Part shown: positions 1 through 18,375 of the stretch, in pieces
How the letters are laid out: every line of letters begins with the position of its first letter
Position numbering within the stretch: the stretch's first letter is position 1
Origin: a virus
Virus record (IMG/VR): IMGVR_UViG_3300017719_005758
Location: 1 to 37,237 of that record
Strand: one strand, 5' to 3'
Length of the DNA stretch: 37,237 nucleotides
The notes under the pieces: generated by a model
Seen by the model: only the letters and a program-made list of their open reading frames with translations
Databases searched by the model: none
What the model was told of the DNA's origin: nothing
Position numbers and translations under genes: made by a program

Positions 1-534
1 AAACAATTAGAATTATTTAGCAAAGCCGACGTGCCCTTTGTTAATGAAGTAGAAACTTTTAACCGCACGTTCGGAAAACCAAACAATTATGAACCGACAA
101 TACCAGAAAAAAAGGAGTGGGAATTCGTATACGACTTTGTACTTGAAGAATTGGAAGAATATAGACAGGCTTGCGAAAACGGAGACATCGTGGAAGTTTT
201 GGATGCTCTGTGTGATATTGCTTACGTTTCCCTTGGGAACGGTACTATGTTACACGGCCTTAAAGATAAGATATGGCCTGCATATCAAGAAGTACAAGGA
301 AGCAATATGTCGAAGTCTTGTAGCACTAAAGAGGAAGCCATGGAAACTGTCACCCTCCGCTCTAAAGAACAAGATGAGCCATGTCACTTTGAACAGATCG
401 AAGACCGATTCGTAGTATACAGAACACGTGATCGTAAAGTAATGAAATCAATTAATTACTATAGACCAGATTTAAAACAATTCTTTACAGGAGATGAATT
501 ACAAAAATTCCATAAACCAGCAACCTTTATTTAA
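1..534 (+). CDS. MazG-like NTP pyrophosphohydrolase (5' end outside window)
   Basis: All-alpha NTP pyrophosphohydrolase of the MazG/HisE type, predicted to hydrolyse a nucleoside triphosphate to its monophosphate and PPi. The reading frame is open from base 1, so the gene starts upstream; the GTG at 31 is probably an internal valine. Counting from that GTG, the metal-binding pattern is visible as E39-E40-x2-E43, then E55, D58 and D62 in the second helix. The C-terminal ~70 residues after the domain match nothing I know. Its 5' two thirds are visibly richer in G+C than the genes that follow, which suggests recent acquisition, perhaps from the host. It ends in a TAATG overlap with the polymerase gene. 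The family call is good; the substrate is unknown. Confidence 0.72.
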   Translation, partial: KQLELFSKADVPFVNEVETFNRTFGKPNNYEPTIPEKKEWEFVYDFVLEELEEYRQACENGDIVEVLDALCDIAYVSLGNGTMLHGLKDKIWPAYQEVQGSNMSKSCSTKEEAMETVTLRSKEQDEPCHFEQIEDRFVVYRTRDRKVMKSINYYRPDLKQFFTGDELQKFHKPATFI

Positions 535-2285
535 TGTATAAAAAGTGTTATTTAGGAGATAAAATAAAACCTAATGTTTTTCAAATGCATCTTTGGGAAG
601 AAGATGGGGGACATCAAATTATTGAATATGAAAATGTAGCATATCAAGAATGTACTGAAGAAGAACATACACATAAAGGATTAAATGGAGAATTTTTAAA
701 ATCCCAACCTAAATGGTTTTATTCTAAAAATCCGGATTATAGTCATAAAAATACACCTGGTTTACATTTCCATGATATGAAACCTCATCAAAAATTTTTA
801 GTTGAGCGTTATGGTGTAAATGATGTTCCTTCTAAGGGACATAGAGAAGTATTTTTTGATATTGAGTGTGAAATAGGAGGAGCATTAACTGAAGAATATA
901 TTGAAGATGCTCCTATGCCTATTACTTCTATTGCTTGGTGGGATAAACAAAAAGATTATTGGTCTATACTTATTTTAGATAAAAAAAATCAACTATCACA
1001 TACTAAAACAGGAAAAAATAAAAATAAAGAAATTATTCCTTGTACTACAGAAAATGAATTGTTAGCTAAATTTATTGAAGCTATAAGAGAGATGGATCCC
1101 GATATACTAGTAGGTTACAACTCAGATTATTTTGATATACCTTATTTATATTATAGAATGTGTAGAACAATAGGTAAAGATTGGGCTGATCATTTATCTC
1201 CTATTGGTAAAGTAGTTTCTAAGAAAAATAATAAATATTTTTTTAAACAAAATCAATATGTAGATATTGTAGGTATTGAATCTTTAGATTATATTCGTTT
1301 ACATAAAAAATATAGTTGGAAAGATGAACCAAGTTGGAAATTAGATGCAATTGGGGCCAAATATGTAGGTATGAATAAAGTTGAATATGATGGAAATTTA
1401 GATCAACTATTTGAAACTGATATTCATAAATTTATTCAATATAACTTTGTTGATGTAGAAATTTTACAAAAGTTAGATGAAAAATTACAATATTTAGCTT
1501 TAACTAAAAACTTATCCCATAAAGGTAAGCATAATTATAGTGAAGTTTATTCTAATAGTATTACTCAAGATGGAGCAATTTCTGCTTATTTATTATCCCA
1601 AAATATAGTTCCACCTCCTAAAGAACCTTTCCCTCAAAAGAAAGATAGTTATGCAGGAGGATATCTTTTTTGCCCTAAAGCAGGATTATACAAATATATG
1701 TTTGATGAAGATTTAACATCGTTATACCCATCTATAATTATGTCAATTAACATTGGTAAAGAAACATTCGTGGGTCGTATTATAGATGCAGATGACCGTA
1801 ATAATAGATTGGGTCTTAACGATTTAAAAGAACGTGACCCCGAAGAAAAATTATTAGTAGAAAATGCAAAACGAAAACAAACCTATGTTAATGCTGGTAG
1901 GTTAGTTGAAATGATCAAACAAAATGATTTAGCAGTAGCGGCTAATGGTTCAATGTTTAGAACAGATAAAGAAGCAGTATTATCCACTATACTTAAAAAA
2001 TGGTTTAAGGAGCGTGTTATTTATAAAAATGCAATGAAAAAAGCATATAAAGAAGGAAACAAAGAATTAGGTGAATATAATCATTTAATGCAATACACAA
2101 TGAAAATTCTTTTAAATTCATTGTATGGTGCAACTGCATTACCTTCATTTAGGTATGGTATGAATTTCCAAACCCTAAGTGAAGCAATTACATTATCAGG
2201 ACACAGAATAATCCAAGAATCAGCCCTTTGTGCTAATAGACATATGAATAAAGTTATGCGAGGGGAATTAAAATTAGAAATATGA
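534..2285 (+). CDS. 43: DNA polymerase family B, N-terminal part (exonuclease, palm motifs A and B)
   Basis: First 583 residues of a T4 gp43-type replicative DNA polymerase. The 3'-5' exonuclease is complete: Exo I D109/E111 in FFDIECE, Exo II N196/D201 in GYNSDYFD, Exo III Y303/D307. The polymerase domain follows with motif A (D393 in DLTSLYPS) and motif B (K524 to G532, KILLNSLYG). The protein stops about 50 residues after motif B, before the essential motif C, which lies in the gene at 3620. The two parts total 894 residues against 898 for T4 gp43, so essentially nothing is missing. The stop overlaps the next start (ATGA). Activity would need both polypeptides to assemble. The family is certain; that the halves work together is inference. 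Confidence 0.95.
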   Translation: MYKKCYLGDKIKPNVFQMHLWEEDGGHQIIEYENVAYQECTEEEHTHKGLNGEFLKSQPKWFYSKNPDYSHKNTPGLHFHDMKPHQKFLVERYGVNDVPSKGHREVFFDIECEIGGALTEEYIEDAPMPITSIAWWDKQKDYWSILILDKKNQLSHTKTGKNKNKEIIPCTTENELLAKFIEAIREMDPDILVGYNSDYFDIPYLYYRMCRTIGKDWADHLSPIGKVVSKKNNKYFFKQNQYVDIVGIESLDYIRLHKKYSWKDEPSWKLDAIGAKYVGMNKVEYDGNLDQLFETDIHKFIQYNFVDVEILQKLDEKLQYLALTKNLSHKGKHNYSEVYSNSITQDGAISAYLLSQNIVPPPKEPFPQKKDSYAGGYLFCPKAGLYKYMFDEDLTSLYPSIIMSINIGKETFVGRIIDADDRNNRLGLNDLKERDPEEKLLVENAKRKQTYVNAGRLVEMIKQNDLAVAANGSMFRTDKEAVLSTILKKWFKERVIYKNAMKKAYKEGNKELGEYNHLMQYTMKILLNSLYGATALPSFRYGMNFQTLSEAITLSGHRIIQESALCANRHMNKVMRGELKLEI

Positions 2286-2545
2286 CATTAAAAAAACAAT
2301 CTATTAGAAAAAATCAACTAATTACTGTAGAAGGTAAACCTATATCTAAAGAAGAAATAATCACTAGAAGTGAAAAATGGAGTGAAATCCAAGAGAATTT
2401 TTTTAAAAAAATGCTTAAACAAGGGGGAACATTTAAAGTAGCGGGAATAAAATATAAAGTAGAATTAATTGAAAGAAGTGATTTAGACTCTAACGGAAAT
2501 AAACCAATAACTGTACCACCATTACCAGGTGAAAGAACATTTTAA
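2282..2545 (+). CDS. Hypothetical protein, first gene of the polymerase insert
   Basis: An 87-residue protein of unknown function and the first of three genes lying between the two polymerase fragments. It overlaps the polymerase stop by four bases (ATGA), so it is probably translated by coupling. It is basic at the N-terminus (several Lys/Arg in the first 12 residues), has a charged middle that could be helical, and ends in a Pro-rich tail (PPLPGERTF). No membrane segment, cysteine cluster or LAGLIDADG, GIY-YIG or HNH motif is visible, so it does not look like a homing endonuclease. It is kept as a gene because of the tight coupling and the codon use shared with its neighbours. Confidence 0.6.
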   Translation: MTLKKQSIRKNQLITVEGKPISKEEIITRSEKWSEIQENFFKKMLKQGGTFKVAGIKYKVELIERSDLDSNGNKPITVPPLPGERTF

Positions 2546-2547
2546 TT

Positions 2548-3243
2548 ATGATATTACAAGAGGCATTTAATTGGTATTTAAATTATAACCCAAATACTGA
2601 TTCTTTAAGATCTTCTCAATTAAATAAAGTAATTGGGGAAATAGAAGATGAATTTATTAGTAATTTTGATTCTTCTAAAAAAATAATTTGTATAGAAACA
2701 GGTGCTTCCCATAATTGGAATGATGGTTGTGTTGGAGCTTTTTTTGCAAAATTATGTGAATTAACAAATGGGAAATTCTATTCTGTAGATATAAATTCTG
2801 AATTAATTGATAATAGTAAAACATTATATAATAGCTTAGGATTTACTAATATAACTCATCATATTGATGACTCAGTAAATTATTTAAAGAATACAAAAGT
2901 TATTCCTAATATAGTTCATTTGGATTCATGGGATTTAAATCTTCGAGATCCTTTTCCTAGTGCATTACATGGGTGGAATGAATTTTTAGCTATTGAAGAT
3001 AAAATGCCTTTAGGGTCTCTTTTAATTATAGATGATAATTATTTTAATGGAACTTGGGTTAATTGGAAAGATAATCGTAATGATAAAGAATGGGATAGAG
3101 TAACAATTAATTATCCAATTGTAGGTAAAGGAAGTCATATTTACAGTTATGTTGAAAGTGGTAATAGTAATTGGATAAAATTAAGTAATGACCATGTTGG
3201 AACAAATGAAAAATTAGTTTATAAAAAAGTAAAATTATGTTAG
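2548..3243 (+). CDS. Class I SAM-dependent methyltransferase-like protein
   Basis: A 231-residue protein with the outline of a Rossmann-fold methyltransferase. Motif I is seen as an IETGAS-type strand-loop near residue 50, followed by an acidic strand end (SVDIN) expected to bind the SAM ribose, then a HLDSWD segment and a LLIIDD strand later in the fold. The glycine loop is degenerate, so the call is moderate. It resembles the Methyltransf_24-like proteins often found beside glycosyltransferases. It sits between the two polymerase fragments and overlaps the next gene by seven bases. Together with the DUF6165 gene it looks like material from a glycan cluster rather than a replication gene. 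The substrate is unknown. Confidence 0.55.
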   Translation: MILQEAFNWYLNYNPNTDSLRSSQLNKVIGEIEDEFISNFDSSKKIICIETGASHNWNDGCVGAFFAKLCELTNGKFYSVDINSELIDNSKTLYNSLGFTNITHHIDDSVNYLKNTKVIPNIVHLDSWDLNLRDPFPSALHGWNEFLAIEDKMPLGSLLIIDDNYFNGTWVNWKDNRNDKEWDRVTINYPIVGKGSHIYSYVESGNSNWIKLSNDHVGTNEKLVYKKVKLC

Positions 3244-3620
3244 TAGAAATTTCAAACGGAGAATTATTAGATAAAATTTCAATTTTAGAGTTAAAATTAC
3301 TTAAAATTGAAGATGAAGAAAAACTAATAAATATTAAAAAAGAATTTGAAACATTAAACCCTTTAGTAATAGAACTATTTGAAAAGTATGATGGTCAATT
3401 ACAAAATCATTATCTTGAATTAGCTAAAATTAATGGTCAACTTTGGGATATAGAAGATTGGATTAGAGATTGTGAACGTGAAAAGAGATTTGATAAAGAA
3501 TTTGTAGAACTAGCCCGTTCTGTGTATATTACCAATGATAAAAGATGTGAAGTTAAAAAATTAATCAATTTAATGACCTCATCAGGATTAGTAGAAGAAA
3601 AATCATATAAAGAATATTAA
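3237..3620 (+). CDS. DUF6165 family protein
   Basis: A 127-residue, mostly helical, charged protein. The N-terminal pattern LVEISNGELLDKISILELK followed by a second helix with KIEDEEKLINIKKE matches my memory of the DUF6165 family, which occurs in glycan and lipopolysaccharide gene neighbourhoods and has no established function. It is the last of the three genes interrupting the polymerase. Its stop overlaps the start of the C-terminal polymerase gene (TAATG), and a promoter for that gene lies inside its 3' part. Family call moderately sure; function unknown. Confidence 0.6.
   Translation: MLVEISNGELLDKISILELKLLKIEDEEKLINIKKEFETLNPLVIELFEKYDGQLQNHYLELAKINGQLWDIEDWIRDCEREKRFDKEFVELARSVYITNDKRCEVKKLINLMTSSGLVEEKSYKEY
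3501..3532 (+). promoter_or_regulatory. Bacteroidota-type promoter inside the DUF6165 gene
   Basis: TTTG at 3501-3504, exactly 20 bases, then TATATTAC at 3525-3532. This equals the spacing and boxes of the promoters upstream of the clamp and in the glycan cluster. The predicted start near 3538 lies about 80 bases before the C-terminal polymerase gene, which would let that gene be expressed apart from the insert. Confidence 0.55.
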
Positions 3621-4555
3621 TGAAACATTTAGAAGAAACACCTTGGTGGATATGTGATACAGATGATGAAAATTATTGTGCCTACGTTGATACTGATTCT
3701 AATTATTTTAATGCTGAACCTTTACTTTTTAAGTTATATCCTAATTTTGAAGAATTATCTGCAGAAAAAAAAGATGATATTTTAGAAAAGGTAGCAATGA
3801 AATATCAAGATGTAATTAATGAAGATTATGATAGATTAGCTAAAGAGTGTTTTAATGTAACTGAACATCGACTTGAAATGAAAACTGAATGTGTTATTCG
3901 TTCAGCTTATTTTAGAGCAACTCGTCGTTATGCTCAATGGATTACTAAACAAGAAGGAATTGCTAAAGAATCTTTAGATATTAAAGGTTTGGAATTTATG
4001 AAAGCAAATTTTCCACCTATCTTAGGATCATTTTTTAATGACATACTTCAACAGGTACTAAAAGGTGAAGAAAAATCTAGTATTTTAGATCAAATTAAAA
4101 TATTTAAAAAACAAATCTTAGATGGTACAATACCACTTACTAAACTAGGTAATCCATCAGCAGTTAAAAAATTAGAAAAATACTCGGGTAAAAATGCTAG
4201 AGCAGGAGAAATGTTTACAGAAATACTTAAAGGAGCTCCTGCACCTGTACGTGCTACAATTCGTTATAATGATTTATTAAGGTTATGGCAATTAGATAAA
4301 AAATATAATTTAATTACACAAGCAGATAAAGTTAAATGGATTTATTTAAGAGATAACCCTTATAAAATAGAAGCATTAGCATTTCAAGATTTTGATGTGC
4401 CTGAAAAAATTAATGATTTTTTAAATGCTTATGCTGATAGACAAAAAGTATTTGATTCAATATTATTAAATAAATTAGAAGGATTCTTTAGTGACTTACA
4501 ATGGTCATTAGATTTAAATCCTTATACAAATGCATTAGCATCTTTTGAGATATAA
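3620..4555 (+). CDS. 43: DNA polymerase family B, C-terminal part (motif C, thumb)
   Basis: The remaining 311 residues of the gp43-type polymerase. Motif C is YVDTDS with catalytic D24 and D26, preceded by only 20 residues, so the break lies just before the motif C hairpin. Further on are a KxxxxR-type palm/thumb segment (MKTECVIRSAYF) and the helical thumb. Upstream, the frame is closed by a TAA at 3608-3610, so ATG 3620 is the only sensible start, in a TAATG overlap with the DUF6165 gene. The C-terminus ends ...ALASFEI, the place where T4-like polymerases carry the clamp-binding tail. It must pair with the 534-2285 product to be active, since each half lacks catalytic residues held by the other. 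Confidence 0.93.
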   Translation: MKHLEETPWWICDTDDENYCAYVDTDSNYFNAEPLLFKLYPNFEELSAEKKDDILEKVAMKYQDVINEDYDRLAKECFNVTEHRLEMKTECVIRSAYFRATRRYAQWITKQEGIAKESLDIKGLEFMKANFPPILGSFFNDILQQVLKGEEKSSILDQIKIFKKQILDGTIPLTKLGNPSAVKKLEKYSGKNARAGEMFTEILKGAPAPVRATIRYNDLLRLWQLDKKYNLITQADKVKWIYLRDNPYKIEALAFQDFDVPEKINDFLNAYADRQKVFDSILLNKLEGFFSDLQWSLDLNPYTNALASFEI

Positions 4556-4574
4556 AATAAACTTCGTATATTAC
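4544..4574 (+). promoter_or_regulatory. Promoter of the sliding clamp gene
   Basis: TTTG at 4544-4547, a 19-base spacer ending ACTTCG, then TATATTAC at 4567-4574. The clamp ATG begins at 4579, only five bases after the box. With the usual start distance of this promoter class the transcript would begin at or very near the ATG, giving a leaderless mRNA. The TTTG box overlaps the end of the polymerase gene. Confidence 0.6.
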
Positions 4575-4578
4575 AACT

Positions 4579-5301
4579 ATGGTAAATAAAACAACACTAA
4601 CATCAGTTATTTCAAAATATTATTTAAATGGTTTAAATAATCAAGTAAAATGGCGTATTAAAGATAACCAATTAACTGTTTATGCGGGTGAAAATGGTAG
4701 AGTATGTAAAGTAATACATAATAATTTTAACCTTGAAGACTCAGAATTAGGTGTATTTGATACTCATAAACTTAGTAAATTACTTTCTATCACCAACGGT
4801 GAATTAAATATTTCACTTGAAAAAATTAAAGCGGTTTATACTAAAATACATATCGCTGATTTAAACTTTGATTTAACTTATTCATTAGCTGATATTTTAA
4901 TTTTAGGTAAAAATACTTATTATGAAGATCCTGAAGAATTTGAAATACAAATTGATTTAACAAATGAAGATATTAATCATTTAATTAAAGCTAAAAGTGC
5001 TTTAGCTGATGTTAATAATATGTTAATCACAAGTACCACAGATATGGATGGGACTAATATATGTGAAATTATATTTGGTGATAATACAGGATTTTCAAAT
5101 AAAATTACTTATCAGCTTAGAGGTAATATTACTAAAGGAGATATTCAAATTCCTTTTGATTCAGATATATTTAAAGATATTTTAAATGCTAATAAAGATA
5201 TGGAAAGTGGTACACTGAAAATATCTGAAGTAGGAATGTTAAAATTAAATTTTTCAACAACAGAAACAGAAAGTGAATACTTTATTGCAAGAAATGAGTA
5301 A
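4579..5301 (+). CDS. 45: Sliding clamp (T4 gp45-like)
   Basis: A 240-residue protein matching the T4 gp45 sliding clamp (228 residues), the ring that holds the polymerase on DNA and, in T4, also activates late transcription. The N-terminal pattern, with alternating strands containing LNGLNNQVKWRIKDNQL, a central FDTHKLSKLLSI and the acidic strands that follow, fits the two-domain processivity fold. Its place directly after the polymerase and before gp44/gp62 is T4-like synteny, although chaperone genes have been inserted between. It has its own promoter immediately upstream. Good confidence from fold pattern plus synteny. Confidence 0.85.
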   Translation: MVNKTTLTSVISKYYLNGLNNQVKWRIKDNQLTVYAGENGRVCKVIHNNFNLEDSELGVFDTHKLSKLLSITNGELNISLEKIKAVYTKIHIADLNFDLTYSLADILILGKNTYYEDPEEFEIQIDLTNEDINHLIKAKSALADVNNMLITSTTDMDGTNICEIIFGDNTGFSNKITYQLRGNITKGDIQIPFDSDIFKDILNANKDMESGTLKISEVGMLKLNFSTTETESEYFIARNE

Positions 5302-5396
5302 ACACATATGTATAATAGAACATAAAATGGAGCTAGGGCACGTGTTATGTTTAAATTAAATTAACCGAGAGCTACGGCCTCACAAAACTAAATGAT

Positions 5397-5813
5397 ATGA
5401 GTACATTATTCAATGAACGTACACCGTTCGACTTACTATTCCGTAACTTTTTTAAAGCAGACGGATCTTTTCAACCAACAACGTTTGACAACAAACAACC
5501 TCACCCACTAGATATTTTTTACGACGAAGAAGGGCTTCACTTTGAGATTGCCTGTACTGGTCTAACTAAAAAAGATATTCAACTAGAAATAGATGGAGAT
5601 CTTTTAAAAATTATCTATGATAAACCAAAAGAAGAAGAAGATTATTCTGGTTATATCTATAAAGGATTAGCTAAACGATCTTTTAATCTAGGTTATAAAG
5701 TAGCAGCTAAATTTGAACTTGAAAGTTTAACTGCTGGAATGAAAGATGGCTTACTTCATATTTTTATTCCAATAGCTGAATCTAAGAAGCCAAAAACAAT
5801 TAAAATTCAATAA
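5397..5813 (+). CDS. Small heat shock protein Hsp20 (alpha-crystallin domain)
   Basis: A 138-residue Hsp20-type ATP-independent holdase. After a short hydrophobic N-terminus (FDLLFRNFF) the alpha-crystallin domain spans about residues 37-128, with the characteristic MKDGLLHIFIP strand near the end. The C-terminus carries the I-x-I motif (I135-K-I137) that docks into neighbouring subunits. It is the first of a phage chaperone set with GroES and GroEL. The 95 bases upstream hold no clear promoter; they contain a 10-base near-repeat (GAGCTAGGGC / GAGCTACGGC). The first ~150 bases of the gene are more GC-rich than the rest. Confidence 0.92.
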   Translation: MSTLFNERTPFDLLFRNFFKADGSFQPTTFDNKQPHPLDIFYDEEGLHFEIACTGLTKKDIQLEIDGDLLKIIYDKPKEEEDYSGYIYKGLAKRSFNLGYKVAAKFELESLTAGMKDGLLHIFIPIAESKKPKTIKIQ

Positions 5814-5831
5814 TAAGTTTTATTAAAAAAG

Positions 5832-5863
5832 CGTGTCCTAGCGCATTTTATTTCGTATATTAA
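5832..5863 (+). promoter_or_regulatory. Weak promoter candidate before the 105-residue gene
   Basis: A TTTCGTATATTAA box (TATATT at 5856-5861) matches the phage promoter box, including the preceding TTCG. The sequence 20 bases upstream is CGTG rather than TTTG, so the -33 element is poor. It lies 22 bases before the ATG at 5884 and would serve the unknown gene, groES and groEL. Confidence 0.35.
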
Positions 5864-5883
5864 CGTCTAAATAAATAAGTTAT

Positions 5884-6201
5884 ATGATAAAAAAAAGAAA
5901 GTCTATTCAGACTATTACCGATCCCTTACTAGAACCATTCTTTATTACTAAGGACGAATACAGTTATACTGTAAAACAAAATGTGACATCTGATGCCAAT
6001 CATTTTAGGGCTAAAGGTAAAGCAAAAACTTATGAAAAATCCCTATATTATTATGCTAATTTTGAACAGGCTTTACAAAAAATAGCTAAATTACAAGCTG
6101 ATATTGAAGATTTTGATAGTTTAGATGAATATATTAACAATTATACAAAAATAAGTACTAACATTAAAAATTATACAAATGGAATTAGAAGCATTGTTTG
6201 A
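5884..6201 (+). CDS. Hypothetical protein before groES
   Basis: A 105-residue protein I do not recognise. It starts with a Lys-rich stretch (MIKKRKS) and the rest is predicted mainly helical with many Lys, Tyr and Asn. No cysteine pairs, signal peptide or membrane segment is seen. It overlaps the start of groES by 23 bases and is preceded by a promoter-like box, so it probably heads the transcript carrying the chaperonin genes. Confidence 0.6.
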   Translation: MIKKRKSIQTITDPLLEPFFITKDEYSYTVKQNVTSDANHFRAKGKAKTYEKSLYYYANFEQALQKIAKLQADIEDFDSLDEYINNYTKISTNIKNYTNGIRSIV

Positions 6202-6490
6202 TGCCGTTATTGTAAAACCCCAAGAAGTTGAAGAAACTACTTATGGGTCAATTATTGTGCCTGATTTAGGTAAAGATAGAAATGAGCATGGAACTGTAGT
6301 AGCAGTAGGTCCTGGTAAACCAACTGTAACTGGAACTTTTTTACCAACAACTGTAAAGGTTGGGGATAAAGTAGTTTTACCAACAGTAGGTTTTACTAAA
6401 TTACAACATTTAGGAGATGAATATTATATTGGCCCCGAAAATCAAATTTTAGCAAAAATTAACCAAACAGAGAAAAAAGAAGATGAATAA
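6179..6490 (+). CDS. groES: Co-chaperonin GroES
   Basis: A 103-residue GroES, the heptameric lid of the GroEL chamber, with the role T4 gp31 plays for capsid protein folding. Visible are the N-terminal strand LFDAVIVKPQEVEETTYGSIIVPD with the mobile loop at about residues 18-34, the GTVVAVGPG turn, and VKVGDKVVLP at the base of the barrel. The stretch GKPTVTGTFLPTT is a little longer than in E. coli GroES. It overlaps the upstream gene by 23 bases and groEL by eight, consistent with coupled translation of both chaperonin parts. Confidence 0.93.
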   Translation: MELEALFDAVIVKPQEVEETTYGSIIVPDLGKDRNEHGTVVAVGPGKPTVTGTFLPTTVKVGDKVVLPTVGFTKLQHLGDEYYIGPENQILAKINQTEKKEDE

Positions 6491-8102
6491 ACAAGTTACA
6501 TTAGGTTCAAAAGCTAGAACCAATTTAGTAAAAGGAATTGATACCTTAGCTGATGCTGTAGTATCAACACTAGGACCAAATGGTCGAAATGTAGTAATAG
6601 CAAACGAAATGGGAGTTCCACAATCAACAAAAGATGGAGTTACAGTTGCTAAATCAATTAAACTAAAAGATCCTGAACAAGAATTAGGAGTACAATTAGT
6701 AAAACAAGCTGCAATTAAAACAGCTGAAAAAGCAGGTGATGGTACAACTACATCTACTTTATTAGCTCGTGAAATGGTAAAAGCAGGATTAAATGCTTTA
6801 AATAATAATGAAAATGCAGTCCAAATTAAACGTGATATTGATTCTACAGTTGAAAAAGTAGTTAACAATCTTAGAAACAATATTTCAGAAGATATCTCAG
6901 GAGAAGAACAATTAGAACAAATTGCAACTATATCAGCAAATAATGATCCAGAAACCGGAAAATTAATTGCTACTGCTATTGACAAAGTAGGAATGGAAGG
7001 AGTTGTTCATATAGAAGAATCCCGAACAGGAGAAACATATTTGGAAACAGTAGAAGGTATGCAATTTGATAGAGGTTATAAATCCCCGTATTTTGTAACT
7101 GATAATAATACAATGACTGCTACTTTAGATAATCCACTTATATTAATTGCGGATAGTAAAATTACTCAAGTAAAAGAATTATTACCTATTCTTGAAAGTG
7201 TTTCTTCACAAGCAAAATCATTACTTATTATAGCAGAAGATATTGATCAAGAAGCATTAGCAACTCTTATTGTTAATAAAATGAGAGGTACTATGAAAGT
7301 ATGTGCTGTAAAAGCCCCAGATTTTGGTGATAGACGTAAATTAGTTTTAGAAGATATTGCAGTCACAACAGGTGGTGTAGTATTTGATAAACAAAAAGGA
7401 ATGAAAATGGATAAATTTAGTTGGGAATGGTTTGGAGAAGCTAGAACCGCAACTATAGATAAAGAAAAGACAACACTGGTAGATGGAAAAGGAACAATTG
7501 AATCAATTGAAACACGTATTGAAGAACTACAACAACAAATTGACAAAGCAGACTCACCGTTCGAAATCGAAAAACTCCAAGAAAGACTTGCAAAATTTGT
7601 CGGAGGAGTAGCAGTTATTCATGTAGGTGGAAATACTGAAACTGAAATGAAAGAGAAAAAAGATAGGGTTGATGATGCTTTACATGCAACAAAAGCCGCT
7701 ATTGAAGAAGGTATAGTACCTGGTGGTGGAACAGCATTATTATATGCATCATCAGGATTAGAAGCTAAAACAACAGGAGCAGCTATTGTAATAGAAGCTT
7801 GTGCTAAACCCTTTAATCAAATTTTAGTTAATGCTGGGTTTGATGAAGTTAAGGGGCAAATTTTAGCTGATAATTTAGTTAACTCTGGTAATGATACTTG
7901 GGCTGGATTTAATATTAAAAATGAAAAAACAGTTAATATGAAAGAAGCTGGTATTATCGATCCAACTAAAGTAGCAAGAACTGCATTGCAAAATGCGGCA
8001 TCTGTTGCTGGTACAGTATTACTAACAGAATGTACTGTAGTAAATGAAATTACTGAGGAAAATCCTCAACAACAAGTTGATCCATCAATGATGGGTTATT
8101 AA
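6483..8102 (+). CDS. groEL: Chaperonin GroEL
   Basis: A full-length 539-residue group I chaperonin. The ATP-binding DGTTT motif is at 86-90, and the catalytic aspartate of VDDALHATKAA falls at residue 398, the same number as in E. coli. Apical and intermediate domains follow the bacterial pattern. The C-terminus lacks the repeated GGM tail and ends QQQVDPSMMGY, so the flexible tail in the chamber is unusual. With its own GroES this should form an independent folding machine for phage proteins. It starts inside the end of groES. The minus-strand reading frames in this region are shadows. Confidence 0.96.
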   Translation: MNKQVTLGSKARTNLVKGIDTLADAVVSTLGPNGRNVVIANEMGVPQSTKDGVTVAKSIKLKDPEQELGVQLVKQAAIKTAEKAGDGTTTSTLLAREMVKAGLNALNNNENAVQIKRDIDSTVEKVVNNLRNNISEDISGEEQLEQIATISANNDPETGKLIATAIDKVGMEGVVHIEESRTGETYLETVEGMQFDRGYKSPYFVTDNNTMTATLDNPLILIADSKITQVKELLPILESVSSQAKSLLIIAEDIDQEALATLIVNKMRGTMKVCAVKAPDFGDRRKLVLEDIAVTTGGVVFDKQKGMKMDKFSWEWFGEARTATIDKEKTTLVDGKGTIESIETRIEELQQQIDKADSPFEIEKLQERLAKFVGGVAVIHVGGNTETEMKEKKDRVDDALHATKAAIEEGIVPGGGTALLYASSGLEAKTTGAAIVIEACAKPFNQILVNAGFDEVKGQILADNLVNSGNDTWAGFNIKNEKTVNMKEAGIIDPTKVARTALQNAASVAGTVLLTECTVVNEITEENPQQQVDPSMMGY

Positions 8103-8120
8103 CCAATAAATAATAAAAAA

Positions 8121-8288
8121 ATGACAAAACAAGAAATTTTTGAGATTATTGAAACAAATTTCAATATCTTAGCAGCAGAAAACGATGGAACTACTAAGGC
8201 AAGTCAAGCACGAGCTAGAAAAGCAGCCCAAGCTATTAAACGAGTAATCACAGATTATAAAAAAGCATCTGTGGCTGAGTCAAAATAG
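8121..8288 (+). CDS. Histone H1-like small basic protein
   Basis: A 55-residue protein from ATG 8121. After an acidic N-terminal helix comes the basic, alanine-rich segment KASQARARKAAQAIKRVITD, which resembles the small histone H1/Hc1-like nucleoid proteins of Flavobacteria. It may bind phage or host DNA. It follows groEL by 18 bases, and its 3' end overlaps the promoter-like element before the next gene. Confidence 0.55.
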   Translation: MTKQEIFEIIETNFNILAAENDGTTKASQARARKAAQAIKRVITDYKKASVAESK

Positions 8289-8301
8289 TTTCGTATATTA
8301 T
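8270..8301 (+). promoter_or_regulatory. Promoter candidate overlapping the start codon at 8300
   Basis: TGTG at 8270-8273, 20 bases, then TATATTAT at 8294-8301, preceded by TTTCG. The ATG at 8300 is part of the box. Transcription from here would begin a few bases inside that gene, so the promoter may really serve gp44 at 8550, or the gene start may be wrong. Confidence 0.4.
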
Positions 8302-8569
8302 GGCTACAAAGATTGAAGAAAAAAATATCCTAATCGCTCGGAGAGTTCCTCCGGGCGACAAATGGAGATTAGTTGCAAATGAACCAGATGGTCCTGTACA
8401 TAAAACTTTAACTGATGCCTTAGAAGCATACATGGTCAAAACAGGATTTAAAGGTCACTACAGGTTAGAACCACTTAAAAGTAGTTTATATGCAATTGAT
8501 TCTAAAGAAACAGAAGTAATACCAGAACCAGAAAAGAAATATTCAATATATGGCGAATACGGAGAATAG
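8300..8569 (+). CDS. Hypothetical protein upstream of the clamp loader
   Basis: An 89-residue protein of unknown function, probably one compact alpha/beta domain: a strand (NILIARRVP), a PGDKWRLVANEPDGPV turn, a helix (TLTDALEAYMVKTG), and a Glu/Lys tail. It overlaps the gp44 gene by 20 bases, and a promoter-like box abuts its ATG. Nothing in it indicates an enzyme. Confidence 0.55.
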   Translation: MATKIEEKNILIARRVPPGDKWRLVANEPDGPVHKTLTDALEAYMVKTGFKGHYRLEPLKSSLYAIDSKETEVIPEPEKKYSIYGEYGE

Positions 8570-9485
8570 TTTATTAGTAGAAAAATATAGACCTAAAACA
8601 TTAAATAATTATGTTGGAAATGAAAATATAAAAAAATCTATATCTGCCTATTTAAACCAAAATGATATTCAAAATTTTATATTTTATGGTCCTGCAGGAA
8701 CTGGTAAAACAACGTTAGCAAAAATTATTGTTAATAGTCTAGACTGTGATCATCTATATATTAATGCTTCTGATGAACGTGGTATTGAAACCATTAGAGA
8801 TAAAGTTTCTAGTTTTGCATCTGTTGCTTCGTTTAAACCACTTAAAGTGGTTATTTTAGATGAAGCAGATTTTCTTACAATTCAAGCTCAAGCATCACTT
8901 AGAAATATAATTGAAACATTTTCTCGTACTACAAGATTTATTATGACTTGTAATTTTGTAGAACGTATTATTGATCCCCTACAATCTAGATGTCAAGTAC
9001 TTAAAATTGTACCTCCAACCAAAAAAGATGTTGCTAAACATTTAAATTGGATTTGTAATGAAGAATCAATTACACATGAAATAAATGATTTAGTACCTCT
9101 AGTTAATCAATATTATCCCGATTTACGTAAGTGTATTAATACTATACAATTATCAACTGTAGATGGTGGGGCAAATGATTTATATCTTAGGTTAGATCAA
9201 TCCATACTAGTATCATCTAATTATATAGACAAGGTTATTACTGAATTATCTAAAGGTAATAAAGTATCATCATTTAATACCATACGTCAAATTATAGCAG
9301 ATGCTAATGTAGATGACTTTGATGGGTTATTTAGAGCACTTTATGATCGTTCATCTGAATATTATAAAGATAAAGAAGGCACAGCAACACTAGCAATAAA
9401 CGAACACCAATATAAAGCAAATTTCCGTATTGACAAGGAAATAAATATAATGTCATTAATTCAAACTTTAATAAAATATAAATAA
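8550..9485 (+). CDS. 44: Clamp loader large subunit (T4 gp44-like AAA+ ATPase)
   Basis: A 311-residue AAA+ ATPase that opens and loads the sliding clamp. Walker A is GPAGTGKTT (47-55), Walker B is VILDEAD (DEAD at 104-107), sensor 1 is in FIMTCNF, and the arginine-finger SRC motif is at 146-148. T4 gp44 is 319 residues, so this is full length. It is followed after seven bases by a small gene and then by the gp62-like subunit, preserving the T4 order 45-44-62 with insertions. Confidence 0.95.
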   Translation: MANTENSLLVEKYRPKTLNNYVGNENIKKSISAYLNQNDIQNFIFYGPAGTGKTTLAKIIVNSLDCDHLYINASDERGIETIRDKVSSFASVASFKPLKVVILDEADFLTIQAQASLRNIIETFSRTTRFIMTCNFVERIIDPLQSRCQVLKIVPPTKKDVAKHLNWICNEESITHEINDLVPLVNQYYPDLRKCINTIQLSTVDGGANDLYLRLDQSILVSSNYIDKVITELSKGNKVSSFNTIRQIIADANVDDFDGLFRALYDRSSEYYKDKEGTATLAINEHQYKANFRIDKEINIMSLIQTLIKYK

Positions 9486-11871: not shown

Positions 11872-12072
11872 ATGAGTTCAACAAAAAACCAAACACTAAC
11901 TAGTGTTAAAGTCCAAACCCCTTTATTTGAGGAATTTAAAATTGAATGTGTAAAGCGTAAATTTTCATTTCAAAAACTTGCTGATCGTGCTTTGTTTTTG
12001 TATCTTACAGATGAAGATTTTCGTAAAAAAATTACAAATCAAATTAACCTCCAAATAAAAAAGAATGGATAG
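11872..12072 (+). CDS. Possible ribbon-helix-helix regulator
   Basis: A 66-residue protein. A short strand (LTSVKVQTPLFEEFKI) is followed by two helices (ECVKRKFSFQKLADRALFLYL), the outline of a MetJ/Arc ribbon-helix-helix DNA-binding protein; similar short proteins occur in T4-like marine phages. It precedes the glycan cluster and overlaps the first glycosyltransferase by eight bases, so it may regulate that cluster. There is no direct evidence of DNA binding. Confidence 0.5.
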   Translation: MSSTKNQTLTSVKVQTPLFEEFKIECVKRKFSFQKLADRALFLYLTDEDFRKKITNQINLQIKKNG

Positions 12073-13513
12073 AAAATTTAGTTATATTCCCAAAGATAAA
12101 CGTAAAAAAATACTTTTAATTTGTGATGATATCAGAGTACATTCAGGTGTTGCTACTGTTGCTAAAGAAATTGTAGTACATACTGCAAATCATTTTAATT
12201 GGTGTCAAATAGCAGGTGCTATTAGACATCCTGAAAAAGGAAAACAACTAGATCTATCAGATGAAACTAATAAAGTAGCAAAAATTGAAGATTCTTATGT
12301 AAAATTATTCCCTGTAGATGGTTATGGTAATGAACAGATTTTAAGAGAAATTTTAAAATTTGAAAAACCAGATGCCGTAATGTTGTTTACAGATCCAAGA
12401 TATTTTGAGTTTGTTTTTAGAATGGAGGCTGAAATTAGAAAAATTTGTCCTATTATGTATCTTAATATTTGGGATGATTTACCTGCTCCTATGTATAACA
12501 GTGCTTACTATGAAGCTTGTGATTTATTAATGGGAATTTCAAAACAAACTGTAAATATTAATAAGTTAGTTTTAAAAGGAAAAGAAAAAAATAGACTATT
12601 TAAATATTTACCTCATGGTAAAAATGAAAATATCTATTACCCTTTAACACAAGAAGAAAAATCATCAAAAGATTTTATTAACTTTAAAAAAAGTATATTT
12701 AAAAATAAAAACCCTAAATTTGTTGGTTTCTTTAACTCTAGGAATATTAGGAGAAAACAAATCCCTGATACTTTATTAGCTTTTAGAGAATTTTTATATT
12801 CATTACCTAAAGAAGAAGCTAAAGAATGTTTTCTAATATTACATACAGAAGCAGTAACTGATCATGGTACAGATCTATATAAAGTAAGAGAATATTTATT
12901 TGGAGAAGATTTTGAAGATCAAATTATATTTTCCCACCAAAAATATGATGATAGAATATTAAATTGGTTATATAATATAGCTGATGTACAACTATTAATT
13001 ACATCAAATGAAGGATGGGGATTAACAATTACTGAGGCTATTTTAGCAGGTACTCCTATTATAGCTAATACTACAGGTGGGATGCAAGATCAAATGAGAT
13101 TTGTAGATAATGAAGGTAAATGGTTTGAACCGGATGAGAATGTGCCTTCTAATCATAGGGGTACATATAAAGAACATGGTGAATGGGCATTTCCAGTTTA
13201 TCCAACTTCAAATTCAATACAAGGTTCTCCTCCTACTCCTTACATTTATGATGATAGATGTTCATGGGAAGATGTTAGTAAAAGATTAAAAGAAGTATAT
13301 CTTATGAATAAAGAGGAACTTCAATCTAGAGGGTTAAAAGGTAGAGAATGGGCTATAAGTAATGAAGCTGGTTTTACATCAAAACACCAGGCTGAAAGAT
13401 TTGTAGAATATGTAAATGAACTATTTGATACTTGGGAACCAAGAGAAAAATATGAAATAGTAAATGCAAATGAATATAAAGGAAAATTTTTAAACCATAA
13501 AATAATTTATTAA
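12065..13513 (+). CDS. Glycosyltransferase, GT4-like (GT-B fold)
   Basis: A 482-residue GT-B glycosyltransferase. The C-terminal domain carries the retaining E-x7-E motif (E316 and E324 in NEGWGLTITEAILAG) with a TTGGMQD loop beyond it, the standard donor-binding site for a nucleotide-activated sugar. The N-terminal acceptor domain starts with a strand and a glycine turn (ILLICDDIRVHSGVATV). It is cytoplasmic, with no membrane segment. It is the first of the sugar-transfer enzymes and overlaps the next gene by one base. Donor and acceptor are unknown. Confidence 0.85.
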   Translation: MDRKFSYIPKDKRKKILLICDDIRVHSGVATVAKEIVVHTANHFNWCQIAGAIRHPEKGKQLDLSDETNKVAKIEDSYVKLFPVDGYGNEQILREILKFEKPDAVMLFTDPRYFEFVFRMEAEIRKICPIMYLNIWDDLPAPMYNSAYYEACDLLMGISKQTVNINKLVLKGKEKNRLFKYLPHGKNENIYYPLTQEEKSSKDFINFKKSIFKNKNPKFVGFFNSRNIRRKQIPDTLLAFREFLYSLPKEEAKECFLILHTEAVTDHGTDLYKVREYLFGEDFEDQIIFSHQKYDDRILNWLYNIADVQLLITSNEGWGLTITEAILAGTPIIANTTGGMQDQMRFVDNEGKWFEPDENVPSNHRGTYKEHGEWAFPVYPTSNSIQGSPPTPYIYDDRCSWEDVSKRLKEVYLMNKEELQSRGLKGREWAISNEAGFTSKHQAERFVEYVNELFDTWEPREKYEIVNANEYKGKFLNHKIIY

Positions 13514-14787
13514 TGAGTAAAACAAGTTTTGTAATAAGTTGCCCATTTGACACTTATAGTGGATATGGAGCTAGATCAAGAGATATAGTTAAAGCTATAA
13601 TACAATCTGGAAAATATGATGTAATGTTATTACCCCAGAGATGGGGATCAACTTCTTGGGGTTTTTGTGATGCACACCCTGAATGGAAGTTTTTAAATGA
13701 TTTAAAAATTAATAGATTAACTAAACGTCCTGATATTTGGATGCAAATTACAATACCTAATGAATTTCAACCAGTTGGGAGATATAATATTGGATGTACC
13801 GCAGGTATTGAAGCTGATAAATGCAAACCAGAATGGATTGCTGGTTTAAATAAAATGGATAGGAATTTTGTGTCTTCTAAATTCACAAAAAAGATGTTTG
13901 AAGAACAAATATTTGATCAAAAAGATAAAAAAACAAACCAAGTTATAGGAAGTATTAAATTAGAAAAACCTATAGATGTTGTATTTGAAGGTGTAGATTT
14001 AGATACATATAAACCTCTAAAAAGTACTGAATTAACTACTTTTGATTTTAGTAAAATTAAAGAATCATTTTGTTATTTATTTGTAGGACATTGGATGAAA
14101 GCAGATTTTGGTCATGATAGAAAAAATGTTAGTTTATTAGTAAAAGCATTTTATGAAACATTTAAAAATAAAAAGAAAAAACCTGCTTTAATATTAAAAT
14201 CATCTACTGGAGTAGCAGGATATATGAGTAGAGATGAAATTTTAGATAAAATTAACAAAATTAAAAAATCAGTAGATTCTAAAATTTTACCTAATATTTA
14301 TGTTTTAAATGGAGAATTTAGTGATTCTGAAATGAATGAATTATATAACCATCCTAAAGTAAAAGCAATGGTTAGTTTAACTAAAGGAGAAGGGTTTGGT
14401 AGACCATTACTAGAATTTACTACAACAGGTAAACCTGTAATAGCTTCAGGTTGGTCTGGTCATACAGATTTTTTACATAATCAATTTTCAGTTTTAATAC
14501 CTGGAGAATTAGAACCTGTACACGCCTCTGCTGCTAATAATTGGTTAATTACTGAAGCTAAATGGTTTAAACCTGATACTAGATATGTTGGAGGTTCTTT
14601 TAAAAATGTATTTGAGAAATATAAAGATTTTAGAACAAAAAGTAAAAGACAAAAATATTATACACAACAAAATTATAGTTGGAAACATATGGAAAAATTA
14701 GTTAATGAAATTTTAGATAATAATCTTCCAGAGTTTCCTAAAGAAATGGAGCTAAAACTCCCAGAATTAAATATACCAAAATTATGA
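13513..14787 (+). CDS. Glycosyltransferase, GT4-like (GT-B fold)
   Basis: A 424-residue second GT-B enzyme. The E-x7-E motif is E293/E301 in KGEGFGRPLLEF, followed by GKPVIASGWSGHTDFL. The N-terminus has a GYGARSRDI glycine-rich loop after the first strand. It differs enough from the preceding transferase that it is probably not a recent duplicate. It overlaps the upstream stop by one base and the downstream gene by four, so the three genes are translationally linked. Confidence 0.83.
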   Translation: MSKTSFVISCPFDTYSGYGARSRDIVKAIIQSGKYDVMLLPQRWGSTSWGFCDAHPEWKFLNDLKINRLTKRPDIWMQITIPNEFQPVGRYNIGCTAGIEADKCKPEWIAGLNKMDRNFVSSKFTKKMFEEQIFDQKDKKTNQVIGSIKLEKPIDVVFEGVDLDTYKPLKSTELTTFDFSKIKESFCYLFVGHWMKADFGHDRKNVSLLVKAFYETFKNKKKKPALILKSSTGVAGYMSRDEILDKINKIKKSVDSKILPNIYVLNGEFSDSEMNELYNHPKVKAMVSLTKGEGFGRPLLEFTTTGKPVIASGWSGHTDFLHNQFSVLIPGELEPVHASAANNWLITEAKWFKPDTRYVGGSFKNVFEKYKDFRTKSKRQKYYTQQNYSWKHMEKLVNEILDNNLPEFPKEMELKLPELNIPKL

Positions 14788-15227
14788 AACATGACTCACT
14801 AAAAATATGCACCAGATGTGGTTCAGATGCTTGTTATACCCAAGAAGTAACTAAAGATATTAATATAGAAATGTGTTATGGATGTGGTTTTCAAAGTAAC
14901 AGTATAATTAAAAAAGGAAATGAATTCTTTAATCAACAATTTGAAAATCTTCCAGAATTATATAAAGAATTAATGGATGAAGAAGAAGAAACAGGTAAAA
15001 TATGGATGCCCACTATTATTAACTTAAAAGATAAGGGTATGGTTTTTGCTGATGGAACTGGAAGAAATAATTGGAGATGGGCTGCAGTCAAAGCAGTAGA
15101 AATACCTAAGGAAGAACAAGAAAAATTTAAAGGAGAAAAACATAAAGCTGATATGTCTACTATAAAACATTTTGTAGAACGTGAATTTATAGAAGCACTT
15201 TCATATATTGGCGTATTACCAGAATAA
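14784..15227 (+). CDS. Zinc-ribbon protein of unknown function
   Basis: A 147-residue protein with two CxxC pairs, CTRCGS near residue 9 and CYGCGF near residue 31, that can hold a zinc ion. The rest is a mixed domain with a conserved-looking WMPTIINLKDKGMVFADG strand and W-R-W residues (NNWRWAAVKAVEIP). Similar small zinc-ribbon proteins occur in T4-like marine phages, but I know no function. Lying among glycosyltransferases, it may still be a separate phage function. Confidence 0.6.
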   Translation: MKHDSLKICTRCGSDACYTQEVTKDINIEMCYGCGFQSNSIIKKGNEFFNQQFENLPELYKELMDEEEETGKIWMPTIINLKDKGMVFADGTGRNNWRWAAVKAVEIPKEEQEKFKGEKHKADMSTIKHFVEREFIEALSYIGVLPE

Positions 15228-16082
15228 ATGAAAATATTAGTTACAGGTGGAGTTGGATTTGTAGGAACAGCTCTAATTAAAAAATTGTTAACCGAGGGAC
15301 ATAATGTTCACTCATTAGATAATTATGAAATTGGTGTTATTGAAAATGAAATAGCTGGTTGTAATTATCATATTGGGGATATAGAAAATATAAGTTTAAT
15401 GGATAAAGATTTTGATCTAATATTTCATTTAGCTGCTCTATCTAGAATACAACCTTCATTTAATAATCCAAATGAAACCTACAGAGTTAATACAATTGGA
15501 ACACAAAGGGTATGTGAATTTGCTAGATTAACGGGAGCTAAAGTTGTATATGCTGGTTCCTCTTCTAGATGGCATGATCCATATCAATCACCTTATGCTG
15601 CGTGTAAACACATGGGAGAAGAAGCATGTAAAATGTATAAAAAAACCTATGGTATGAATATTGAAATAGTTAGGTTTTATAATGTTTATGGTCCTGGTGA
15701 AATAGTAGATGGAGATTGGGCTGCGGTTATAGGAAAATGGAGACGTCAAGTTAGAGATGGAGAACCAATAACCATTGTAGGTAATGGTGAACAAAGAAGA
15801 GATTTTACCTATATAGATGACATTATAGATGGACTATGGAAAATTGGAATGAAGGAATTAACACATGAAGATGCCTGGGAATTAGGAACGGGTATGAATT
15901 ATTCTATTAATGATGTTTATTTAATGTTTAAGGAAAGATTTGGAGTTGATTTTATTAACTTACCAGACCAATCAGGCAATTATAGAGCTACTTTAAGAGA
16001 AAATGATGATAGTTTAGATAAATTAAATTGGAAACCTTCAGATAAATTAAGAGATTATATCTTAAGTTTAAACAAAAATTAA
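15228..16082 (+). CDS. NAD-dependent sugar epimerase/dehydratase
   Basis: A 284-residue extended SDR enzyme acting on nucleotide sugars. The Rossmann motif is TGGVGFVG (6-13), the NAD-binding LAALSR comes next, and the catalytic pair is Y123-x3-K127 (SPYAACK) with an upstream Ser cluster (AGSSSRW). The length and the VRFYNVYGPGE segment fit UDP-glucose 4-epimerase-like or dehydratase-like members. The substrate cannot be told from sequence. It starts immediately after the preceding stop. Confidence 0.85.
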   Translation: MKILVTGGVGFVGTALIKKLLTEGHNVHSLDNYEIGVIENEIAGCNYHIGDIENISLMDKDFDLIFHLAALSRIQPSFNNPNETYRVNTIGTQRVCEFARLTGAKVVYAGSSSRWHDPYQSPYAACKHMGEEACKMYKKTYGMNIEIVRFYNVYGPGEIVDGDWAAVIGKWRRQVRDGEPITIVGNGEQRRDFTYIDDIIDGLWKIGMKELTHEDAWELGTGMNYSINDVYLMFKERFGVDFINLPDQSGNYRATLRENDDSLDKLNWKPSDKLRDYILSLNKN

Positions 16083-16084
16083 AT

Positions 16085-16714
16085 ATGAAAATAAGTTATG
16101 CAATAACCGTATGTGATGAGTTTCTTGAAATACAAAAACTTCTCTCACTATTATTAAATAATAAAAGACAACAGGATGAAATTGTAGTATTAGTTGATTT
16201 AAGTAAAAATGAACCTACATCTGAACTCTTAAGTTATCTTCATGAACTAAGTTCTGAAGATTGTATTAAGTTAGTTGAAGACAATTTTAAAGGACATTTT
16301 GCTAATTGGAAGAATTTATTAACTAATCATTGTTCTGGAGATTTTATATTTCAAATAGATGCTGATGAAACCCCCCATGAAGTATTATTAGGTTATCTTC
16401 CTGAAATATTAGGAAATAATCCTAATAATGAAGTATATTTAGTTCCTAGAGTTAATACTGTAGAAGGATTAACAGATGAACATATTAAAAAATGGGGATG
16501 GAGAGTTAACGATGCCGGTTGGGTAAATTGGCCTGATTATCAATGGCGTATTTGGAAAAATAAACCAGAAATTAAATGGGTAAATAAAGTACATGAAAAA
16601 CTAGAAGGTTTTAAAACATATGCTACCATTCCTTTAACTGAACAATTATCTTTATACCACCCTAAAAATATTAATCGTCAAGAAAAACAAAACGCTTATT
16701 ACGATACATTATGA
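16085..16714 (+). CDS. Glycosyltransferase family 2 (GT-A fold)
   Basis: A 209-residue GT-A transferase. The N-terminus SYAITVCDEFLEIQKLL is the first nucleotide-binding strand, and DADE at 92-95 (FQIDADETP) is the metal-binding DxD motif. The C-terminal WRIWKNKPEIKWVNKVHEKLEG segment is typical of GT2 enzymes related to WaaE/KdtX-type lipopolysaccharide transferases. It is short for the family but appears complete. It overlaps the next gene by four bases. Confidence 0.8.
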   Translation: MKISYAITVCDEFLEIQKLLSLLLNNKRQQDEIVVLVDLSKNEPTSELLSYLHELSSEDCIKLVEDNFKGHFANWKNLLTNHCSGDFIFQIDADETPHEVLLGYLPEILGNNPNNEVYLVPRVNTVEGLTDEHIKKWGWRVNDAGWVNWPDYQWRIWKNKPEIKWVNKVHEKLEGFKTYATIPLTEQLSLYHPKNINRQEKQNAYYDTL

Positions 16715-17586
16715 AAATATTATATGTAACAAATCATAATGATATTTTTGATTTTACTAAAGGGGTTATTAATGATTACCAAAATGATTTAGTATTTCAT
16801 GGTTTAAGAGAATTATTTGGAGATGATGTTGTAGATAGTACACAAATAATATCTTTATATAAAGAATTTGAAGGTAAGATTTTGCCTCAAAACTTATGGG
16901 GACGTATGACTCTTTTTTGGTTAATAGGTGATAATAATATAGATAGAACTAATATTGAAGATAAAATTAAAGATAAATATTATGATTTAATTATTTATGG
17001 GTCAATTAAACGTTGTAGAAATTATTATAATCTAGTTTCTAAAGTATACCCACCTGATAGAGTTATACTAATTGATGGAAATGATGAAGAAACTTTAGAT
17101 CCTTTACATACTAAACATCTATATTTTAAAAGAGAATTTTTACCTGGCTATGAACATAAAAATATCCATCCTATAACTTTTGGTATTCCTTCTTCTAAAA
17201 TAGCCAAATTGCCTATAACAAAAACACAACAATATGCAACTAACATCCCAGGTAAACCTGAAACTTATATTTTTAAAGATGAAAAAAGTTACTATGAAGA
17301 TTACCAAAAATCATATTATGGAGTAACTACTAAAAAAGCAGGATGGGATTGTATGAGACACTATGAGATATTAGGTAATTATTGTATGCCTTATTTTCCA
17401 GAATTAGAAAAATGTCCTAAGAATACTTTATCTTTACTACCAAAAGAATTACTTATAGAAGGAAGAGAGTTAACGAAAAATTTTAATATTGAAAGATATT
17501 ATAATATTTTAGATGAACTATTTGATTATACTAAACAAAATCTTACTACAAAAAATGTAGCTGAGTATATATTATCTAAAATATGA
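16711..17586 (+). CDS. Probable glycosyltransferase (CgeB-like GT-B)
   Basis: A 291-residue protein. The N-terminal strand MKILYVTNHND and the YDLIIYGSIKR segment look like a GT-B acceptor half. The C-terminal stretch GWDCMRHYEILGNYCMPYFP (211-230) resembles the donor loop of CgeB/Glyco_trans_1_2 proteins, where a conserved RHYE helix precedes the P/F residues. No E-x7-E is present. It overlaps its neighbours by four bases each side in a run of sugar-transfer genes. Moderate confidence in the class, none in the substrate. Confidence 0.55.
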   Translation: MKILYVTNHNDIFDFTKGVINDYQNDLVFHGLRELFGDDVVDSTQIISLYKEFEGKILPQNLWGRMTLFWLIGDNNIDRTNIEDKIKDKYYDLIIYGSIKRCRNYYNLVSKVYPPDRVILIDGNDEETLDPLHTKHLYFKREFLPGYEHKNIHPITFGIPSSKIAKLPITKTQQYATNIPGKPETYIFKDEKSYYEDYQKSYYGVTTKKAGWDCMRHYEILGNYCMPYFPELEKCPKNTLSLLPKELLIEGRELTKNFNIERYYNILDELFDYTKQNLTTKNVAEYILSKI

Positions 17587-18374: not shown

Positions 18375-18375
18375 T

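Follow-up and report, generated by a model that had tools for sequence, protein, structure and literature searches.

A T4-Type DNA Polymerase Apparently Encoded as Two Chains, with Other Genes at the Joint, in a Clade of Uncultured Phages

Introduction

We found few split replicative DNA polymerases in print, and most of them are tied to introns, inteins, or endonucleases. The split of the T4-type polymerase gene (gene 43) of Aeromonas phage 25 involves a group I intron. The excerpted text of PMC2988022 reports that in phage 25 gp43A and gp43B purify together and are active as a polymerase, and that the two parts are separated by a seg endonuclease gene in phage 25 and by an untranslated spacer in phage 44RR. 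Here we describe a T4-type family B DNA polymerase (PolB) in a stretch of viral DNA of 37,237 nucleotides (IMG/VR record IMGVR_UViG_3300017719_005758, positions 1 to 37,237; hereafter the window) whose gene is in two parts, gp43A and gp43B (chains A and B), with three other genes lying between them. We propose, with a probability of roughly 85%, that a working replicative polymerase is encoded here as two chains in one operon, that the chains would be assembled without splicing, and that the joint between them is used as a slot for cargo genes.

Results

Two Parts of One Polymerase

Both chains match PHROG 262, the family of the T4-type polymerase, chain A at positions 23-567 (E 1.5e-112) and chain B at positions 565-842 (E 9.2e-47), and because the family is covered in this way the two chains make up one full polymerase. 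The Pfam domains DNA_pol_B and DNA_pol_B_exo1 are both found in chain A; the DNA_pol_B score of chain B is 15.7, under the cut-off of 23. Motifs A, B, and C are all present across the two chains (Table 1), and chain B opens with the head MKHLEETPWWIC. We conclude from these similarities that the two open reading frames (ORFs) together encode a single T4-type family B polymerase, each supplying one part. The initial annotation of this DNA had placed the polymerase in just these two frames, with the break after motif B and shortly before motif C, and it was exact on both counts.

The break lies downstream of motif B and 21 residues ahead of YVDTDS. When the joint was mapped onto RB69 gp43, as had been suggested, residue 575 of chain A, the last one aligned, proved to be the counterpart of residue 609, which places the joint in the loop before the motif-C strand. 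Unsplit relatives, which had likewise been thought worth seeking, number 60 (see below), and in an alignment with one of them, L148 (L-numbers are the labels of loci in our survey of relatives), the window joint corresponds to residue 576. A structural model of this single-chain relative was obtained with 25 sequences (predicted local distance difference test score [pLDDT] 85.1, predicted template modeling score [pTM] 0.74) and matched RB69 gp43 with a Z score of 41.2 at 3.8 Å over 783 residues. Its long helix (residues 539-568) is followed by a stretch that is mostly irregular (569-591) and then by the motif-C hairpin (592-603). Alignment and model together place the break in a loop that connects the long palm helix downstream of the fingers with the β-strand leading into motif C, so that the two chains could plausibly still fold together.

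Prevalence and Conservation of the Split Form

Four protein scans of IMG/VR, from which the best 80 of 248, 552, at least 539, and 285 relatives were taken, together with two phage records, gave 312 loci with a second polymerase part; merging those with identical matched second-part DNA left 214 distinct sequences, near-copies among them. These comprise 137 split sequences (132 of the window type and five from more distant lineages, in which the break lies nearby), 60 single-chain sequences, and 17 with no first part on the contig. Two of the loci, L144 and L154, are classed as split only through a stop codon in motif C. Two further split loci, L329 and L330, are on contigs of metagenome-assembled genomes (MAGs) and stand outside the counts. 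The only relatives in bacterial genome bins are L329-L332; of these four contigs, three belong to Flavobacteriaceae MAGs, which hints weakly at the host.

Among the window-type sequences chain B starts 23 residues before DTDS in every one that was measured (123 of 123), and its head is conserved, with P8 in 100%, W9 in 93%, I11 in 99%, and C12 in 100% of 124 sequences, whereas the tail of chain A after NSLYG is variable (45 to 90 residues). A pattern search found motif C intact in 129 of 132 sequences and motif B in 96 of the 97 with a full first part; the second-part match is truncated in L242 and L312, and the first part of L226 failed all motif patterns. Ratios of nonsynonymous to synonymous substitution (dN/dS) in 16 pairs were 0.03-0.19 for chain A and 0.02-0.22 for chain B, a few of the dS values being above 1. 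Both halves are under purifying selection. We have high confidence, from this survey of sequences, that the window represents a conserved two-gene polymerase. Across a diverse clade of uncultured phages, splitting is the norm.

The Joint as a Cargo Slot

The insert of the window holds an 87-amino-acid (aa) gene, a methyltransferase-like gene, and a DUF6165 gene (Table 1), the last being the only one to pass a curated cut-off. As the initial annotation had it, the 87-aa product is without a family and the DUF6165 assignment is sound. The methyltransferase call has a match behind it, albeit a weak one that falls below the Pfam cut-off. Also in keeping with that annotation, which had seen neither a homing endonuclease nor an intein in the insert, no intein match was obtained for the window proteins, and none of the three insert genes has a nuclease match above cut-off in Pfam, PHROGs, or NCBIfam. 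The genes had further been described as glycan-type; this was not demonstrated for the window's own insert, and it is some of the relatives that carry clear sugar genes there. As candidate defense genes, the three gave no PADLOC hit.

The insert genes had been taken to split the polymerase. That view is contradicted by 20 of the 132 window-type splits, which have no insert and in which the stop and start codons only overlap or abut. An example is L162, whose chain A stop and chain B start overlap as ATGA; L159, which is 96% and 94% identical to it in the two parts, has an 88-aa homologue of the 87-aa gene between them. Because relatives exist with the same split and no insert, the insert is evidently secondary to the split, and its genes would not be the cause of the break.

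Inserts range in length from approximately 0.2 to 4.3 kb. We catalogued the cargo of 112 gap loci (including two that belong to distant lineages; L082, L242, and L312 were set aside) and obtained 230 ORFs, which fall into 25 clusters and 29 gene orders. The 87-aa gene is present in 99 of these loci, the DUF6165 cluster in 54, and a cupin of the mannose-6-phosphate isomerase type in 18; a DegT aminotransferase, a DXD glycosyltransferase, a formyltransferase, and an acetyltransferase are rarer. The Pfam search covered representatives of 13 of the 25 clusters, and the labels sulfotransferase-, epimerase-, and cysteine-synthase-like were given by eye. Nuclease-type genes were recognized in two inserts, a NUMOD3 gene in L130/L131 (a distant lineage) and a T5orf172 gene in L174 (window type). 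For one cargo protein that looked Smr-like the top Pfam row was far under the cut-off and was taken for chance. Repeats at the insert edges gave only weak two-copy matches.

The gene upstream of chain B overlaps it in 83 of 124 sequences and ends within 15 nucleotides (nt) of its start in 30 more, and no terminator-like site was found on the coding strand between chains A and B in the window. With genes that overlap or nearly abut and no such site among them, the arrangement fits a single, translationally coupled operon, in which ribosomes could pass from chain A through the insert to chain B; coupling itself is presumed.

History of the Break

Trees were built for the second part (94 rows) and for both parts together (46 of the 72 rows with both parts, L144, L082, L130, and L163 having been excluded beforehand). 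Both were quick searches, with support by the Shimodaira-Hasegawa-like approximate likelihood ratio test only. The window falls inside a clade all of whose members are split, comprising 58 rows (support 98) in the second-part tree and 29 rows (support 98) in the both-parts tree. A single origin of the break in this clade is the simpler reading and probably the right one.

The same loop is also broken in L130/L131, L133, and LR756508 (relatives of the type of Microcystis phage Mel-JY01), which are placed apart from each other among single-chain rows in the second-part tree. In three lineages a stop codon and a start codon interrupt motif C itself (YxDTDS) between T and D, and the next chain would begin MDS (Table 1). 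The first-part tails of L133 (7133-7276), L131 (6742-6894), and L082 (6259-6414) have a common conserved end resembling VKxSELLETDEI, which weakly resembles the N-intein of Pseudomonas phage MIJ3 and is possibly a leftover that is used for docking. The L133 tail has a weak pairwise likeness to the MIJ3 intein (28% over 43 residues), which we treat as a lead only; its tblastn match to Klebsiella phage polymerases turned out to consist of the motif-B stretch with a spurious extension.

It is conceivable, though we would bet somewhat against it, that phage PolBs have fractured repeatedly in the region that runs from the loop ahead of motif C up to the turn of that motif. The fracture would be fixed in the window clade, with the joint as a cargo slot, and in the other lineages the break would run through the motif itself (YxDT / MDS), leaving its two aspartates on different chains. 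Since chains A and B would both be essential, cargo at such a fracture would be hard to lose and would move with the polymerase by recombination.

As to what broke the gene, one tentative scenario, which is compatible with a two-chain polymerase and to which we give rather less than an even chance, is that a split intein with its homing endonuclease did so near motif C, and that subsequent loss of the endonuclease and of the splicing parts left two chains with an open slot. Alternatively, a simple mutation that created a stop and a restart in the loop may have broken the gene. The insert-free members do resemble simple stop-restart overlaps, the window chains bear no trace of an intein, and searches of PDB and Pfam for intein remnants in the tails of L133, L131, and LR756508 gave nothing convincing; on the other hand, MIJ3 has a split intein and an HNH gene at YGDTD|S, the NUMOD3 and T5orf172 genes lie at the joint, and LR756508, besides its break at the loop, seems to carry an intein in motif C (a PF14890 match with an E of 1.6e-5, short of the cut-off, the junction being placed by eye).

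The 87-aa Gene

A homologue of the 87-aa gene is in the gap of 104 of the 132 window-type splits and has a dN/dS of 0.08-0.43 (11 pairs), as might be expected if its product were a third subunit that holds chains A and B together. We consider that role unlikely. A search of 20 contigs recovered the gene in the six whose gap holds it and in none of the 12 insert-free split ones (11-110 kb); and L152, one of two single-chain contigs searched, has a 73-aa homologue approximately 7 kb from an unbroken polymerase gene. It follows from its absence from insert-free splits and its presence near an unbroken polymerase that this is, on the evidence of gene content, a separate gene, mostly located in the gap, whose product is no obligate subunit; it may act as a helper. 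The protein matched no family above cut-off in Pfam, PHROGs, or NCBIfam, where only scattered weak Pfam and PHROG rows appeared; its best PDB profile match had an E of 0.027, and none was found among INPHARED phages. A model of its fold (pLDDT 69.9, pTM 0.48) had no Foldseek match in PDB at E <=0.001.

Table 1. Features of the split polymerase locus in the window and of breaks in related loci
Feature	Locus	Position	Strand	Remarks
Polymerase chain A, 583 aa	Window	534-2285	+	Exonuclease, first part of the palm, and fingers; C-terminus in the loop ahead of motif C
Motif A, DLTSLYPS, chain A residues 393-400	Window	1710-1733	+	From sequence and RB69 alignment
Motif B, KILLNSLYG, chain A residues 524-532	Window	2103-2129	+	From sequence and RB69 alignment
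87-aa gene, no known family	Window	2282-2545	+	Start overlaps chain A stop (ATGA)
Methyltransferase-like gene, 231 aa	Window	2548-3243	+	PF13847 E 0.0094, below cut-off; phrog_24975 E 1.2e-11
DUF6165 gene, 127 aa	Window	3237-3620	+	PF19662 E 5.3e-14; overlaps preceding gene and chain B start (TAATG)
Polymerase chain B, 311 aa	Window	3620-4555	+	Conserved 23-residue head, motif C, remaining palm, thumb
Motif C, YVDTDS, chain B residues 22-27	Window	3683-3700	+	From sequence
Motif C cut, TAATG	L130; L131	3832; 7983		
Motif C cut, TAGATG	L144/L146/L154	8189		YIDT / MDS in L144
Motif C cut, TAAATG	L319; L324	9780-9802; 465-487	-	
Polymerase parts	L082 (LR756508.1 256000-272000)	3364-6417, 9423-11288		Apparent inteins at motif B and motif C sites, by eye

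Neighboring Genes

Directly 3' of chain B is a 240-aa gene of no family (4579-5301), in the position where a sliding clamp might be expected. Genes for Hsp20, GroES, and GroEL follow one another at 5397-8102, within the replication cluster. Farther along are a series of sugar genes at 12065-24226 (glycosyltransferases, epimerases, a DegT aminotransferase, and a UDP-glucose/GDP-mannose dehydrogenase) and, at 32595-33614, a gene for 3-oxoacyl-ACP synthase III (PF08541, PF08545), which is unusual in a phage.

Discussion

In the scheme we favor, chain A would supply motifs A and B and chain B would supply motif C and the thumb, the two folding together with no covalent joining. The break would be old, having probably arisen once in the clade and without the present insert, and the joint would later have become a site of insertion, with the 87-aa gene as its most stable occupant. 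We hold with moderate confidence that the chains act as an unspliced pair; their association and joint activity, translational coupling across chain A, the insert, and chain B, and the order of events, we infer.

Three other explanations, all raised by the initial annotation, fare poorly. That the message or the protein is spliced into one chain, by an intron or a split intein, has precedent in the group I introns and split inteins of phage PolB genes (excerpts of PMC2988022, PMC6892783, and PMC11923092), and we nonetheless regard it as very improbable. A search of window positions 1-9000 gave no Rfam match up to E 1, the window proteins have no intein match in Pfam, and both polymerase parts are overlapped by insert genes. 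Between motif B and DTDS the window chains have 51+23 residues, as compared with 68 in L148 and 52 in Mel-JY01, which leaves no room for an intein of approximately 130-150 aa (the size given in the excerpt of PMC11923092).

Nor does it seem at all probable that the split gene is a decaying copy and that a working polymerase is encoded elsewhere in the genome, given the purifying selection on both parts and the finding of no other PolB match on any of 14 split contigs of 51-170 kb, some of which are near-copies and none of which is demonstrated to be a complete genome, the last being the point that speaks for decay. One of these contigs, L163, does have an additional PolB match, which is the exonuclease piece of the same gene, separated by an apparent intein (by eye); two single-chain contigs have one PolB match each. 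The intein-like insert of L163 (5337-8156, by eye) interrupts the exonuclease domain, and the joint of this split polymerase is free of inserts.

Finally, nearly all of the sequences are metagenomic, yet an assembly error or a frameshift that separates the parts of one gene can be rejected for the clade, since 132 distinct sequences, drawn from many IMG/VR records, have this very joint, a recurrence that neither chance nor misassembly would produce, and since whole genes separate the two parts in the window.

Several observations do weigh against the scheme as a whole or in part. In both free trees single-chain sisters group with splits of the L162 type (support 91 and 93), on account of which a second split or a re-fusion is possible; a tree constrained to keep all 35 split ingroup rows in one group nevertheless exceeded the free tree by 12 log-likelihood units and was not rejected (approximately unbiased test, p-AU 0.691). 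The motif patterns missed motif A in five of 97 sequences and exonuclease motif I in six of 97. One window-type split, L313, has an in-frame TGA in motif C (YSDT*SDSIY, 5357-5400) with no restart codon there. As regards a single operon, chain B starts 16-268 nt behind the previous gene in 11 of 124 sequences, and promoter-like sites in the insert are no commoner than in shuffled sequences, yet separate promoters are possible.

How does the window compare with systems described before? Like it, Aeromonas phages 44RR, 25, and 65 have a T4-type PolB as two neighboring genes, gp43A and gp43B, a parallel that the initial annotation had drawn. It holds for the existence of a split and not for its place: the joints of 44RR and 65 correspond to window residue 509, on the N-terminal side of motif B, whereas the window joint follows motif B and comes after residue 583. 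The window also has coding cargo where, in the excerpted account cited above, 44RR has its spacer and phage 25 its seg gene. MIJ3 comes closer in position, with a PolB in two genes, a gene between them, and a break at motif C; there, however, the break coincides with a split intein and an HNH endonuclease gene, neither of which was recognized in the window, where it falls 23 residues before DTDS. In LR756508, an uncultured phage of 484 kb, PolB is broken in the same loop as in the window, with approximately 3 kb between the parts; its chains are 31-34% identical to those of the window in the matched pieces, its insert is different, and it lies far from the window clade on a long branch. The OM43 phages MEP401 and MEP402, as described in the excerpted text of PMC10580990, likewise have a replicative polymerase in two ORFs with a small ORF of no known function between them, an enzyme of family A that is unrelated to the window's. 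Single-chain homologues unbroken at the loop are found in Mel-JY01 (approximately 33% identical, with a clamp-loader-type gene downstream) and, nearer to the window, in the L147/L148 group (L148-type sequences are 51-57% identical in part A and 47-50% in part B).

Among the matches listed in our search of open-licence papers, none described a PolB split in the loop before motif C. For enzymology, the window clade would be a source of natural two-part PolBs, and it could also serve as a test of how genes come to accumulate inside an essential gene. Split PolBs, then, were known before; what appears from the sequences to be new is a cargo slot in which no intron, intein, or endonuclease is recognized in the window, together with the position of the joint and its fixation across an entire clade.

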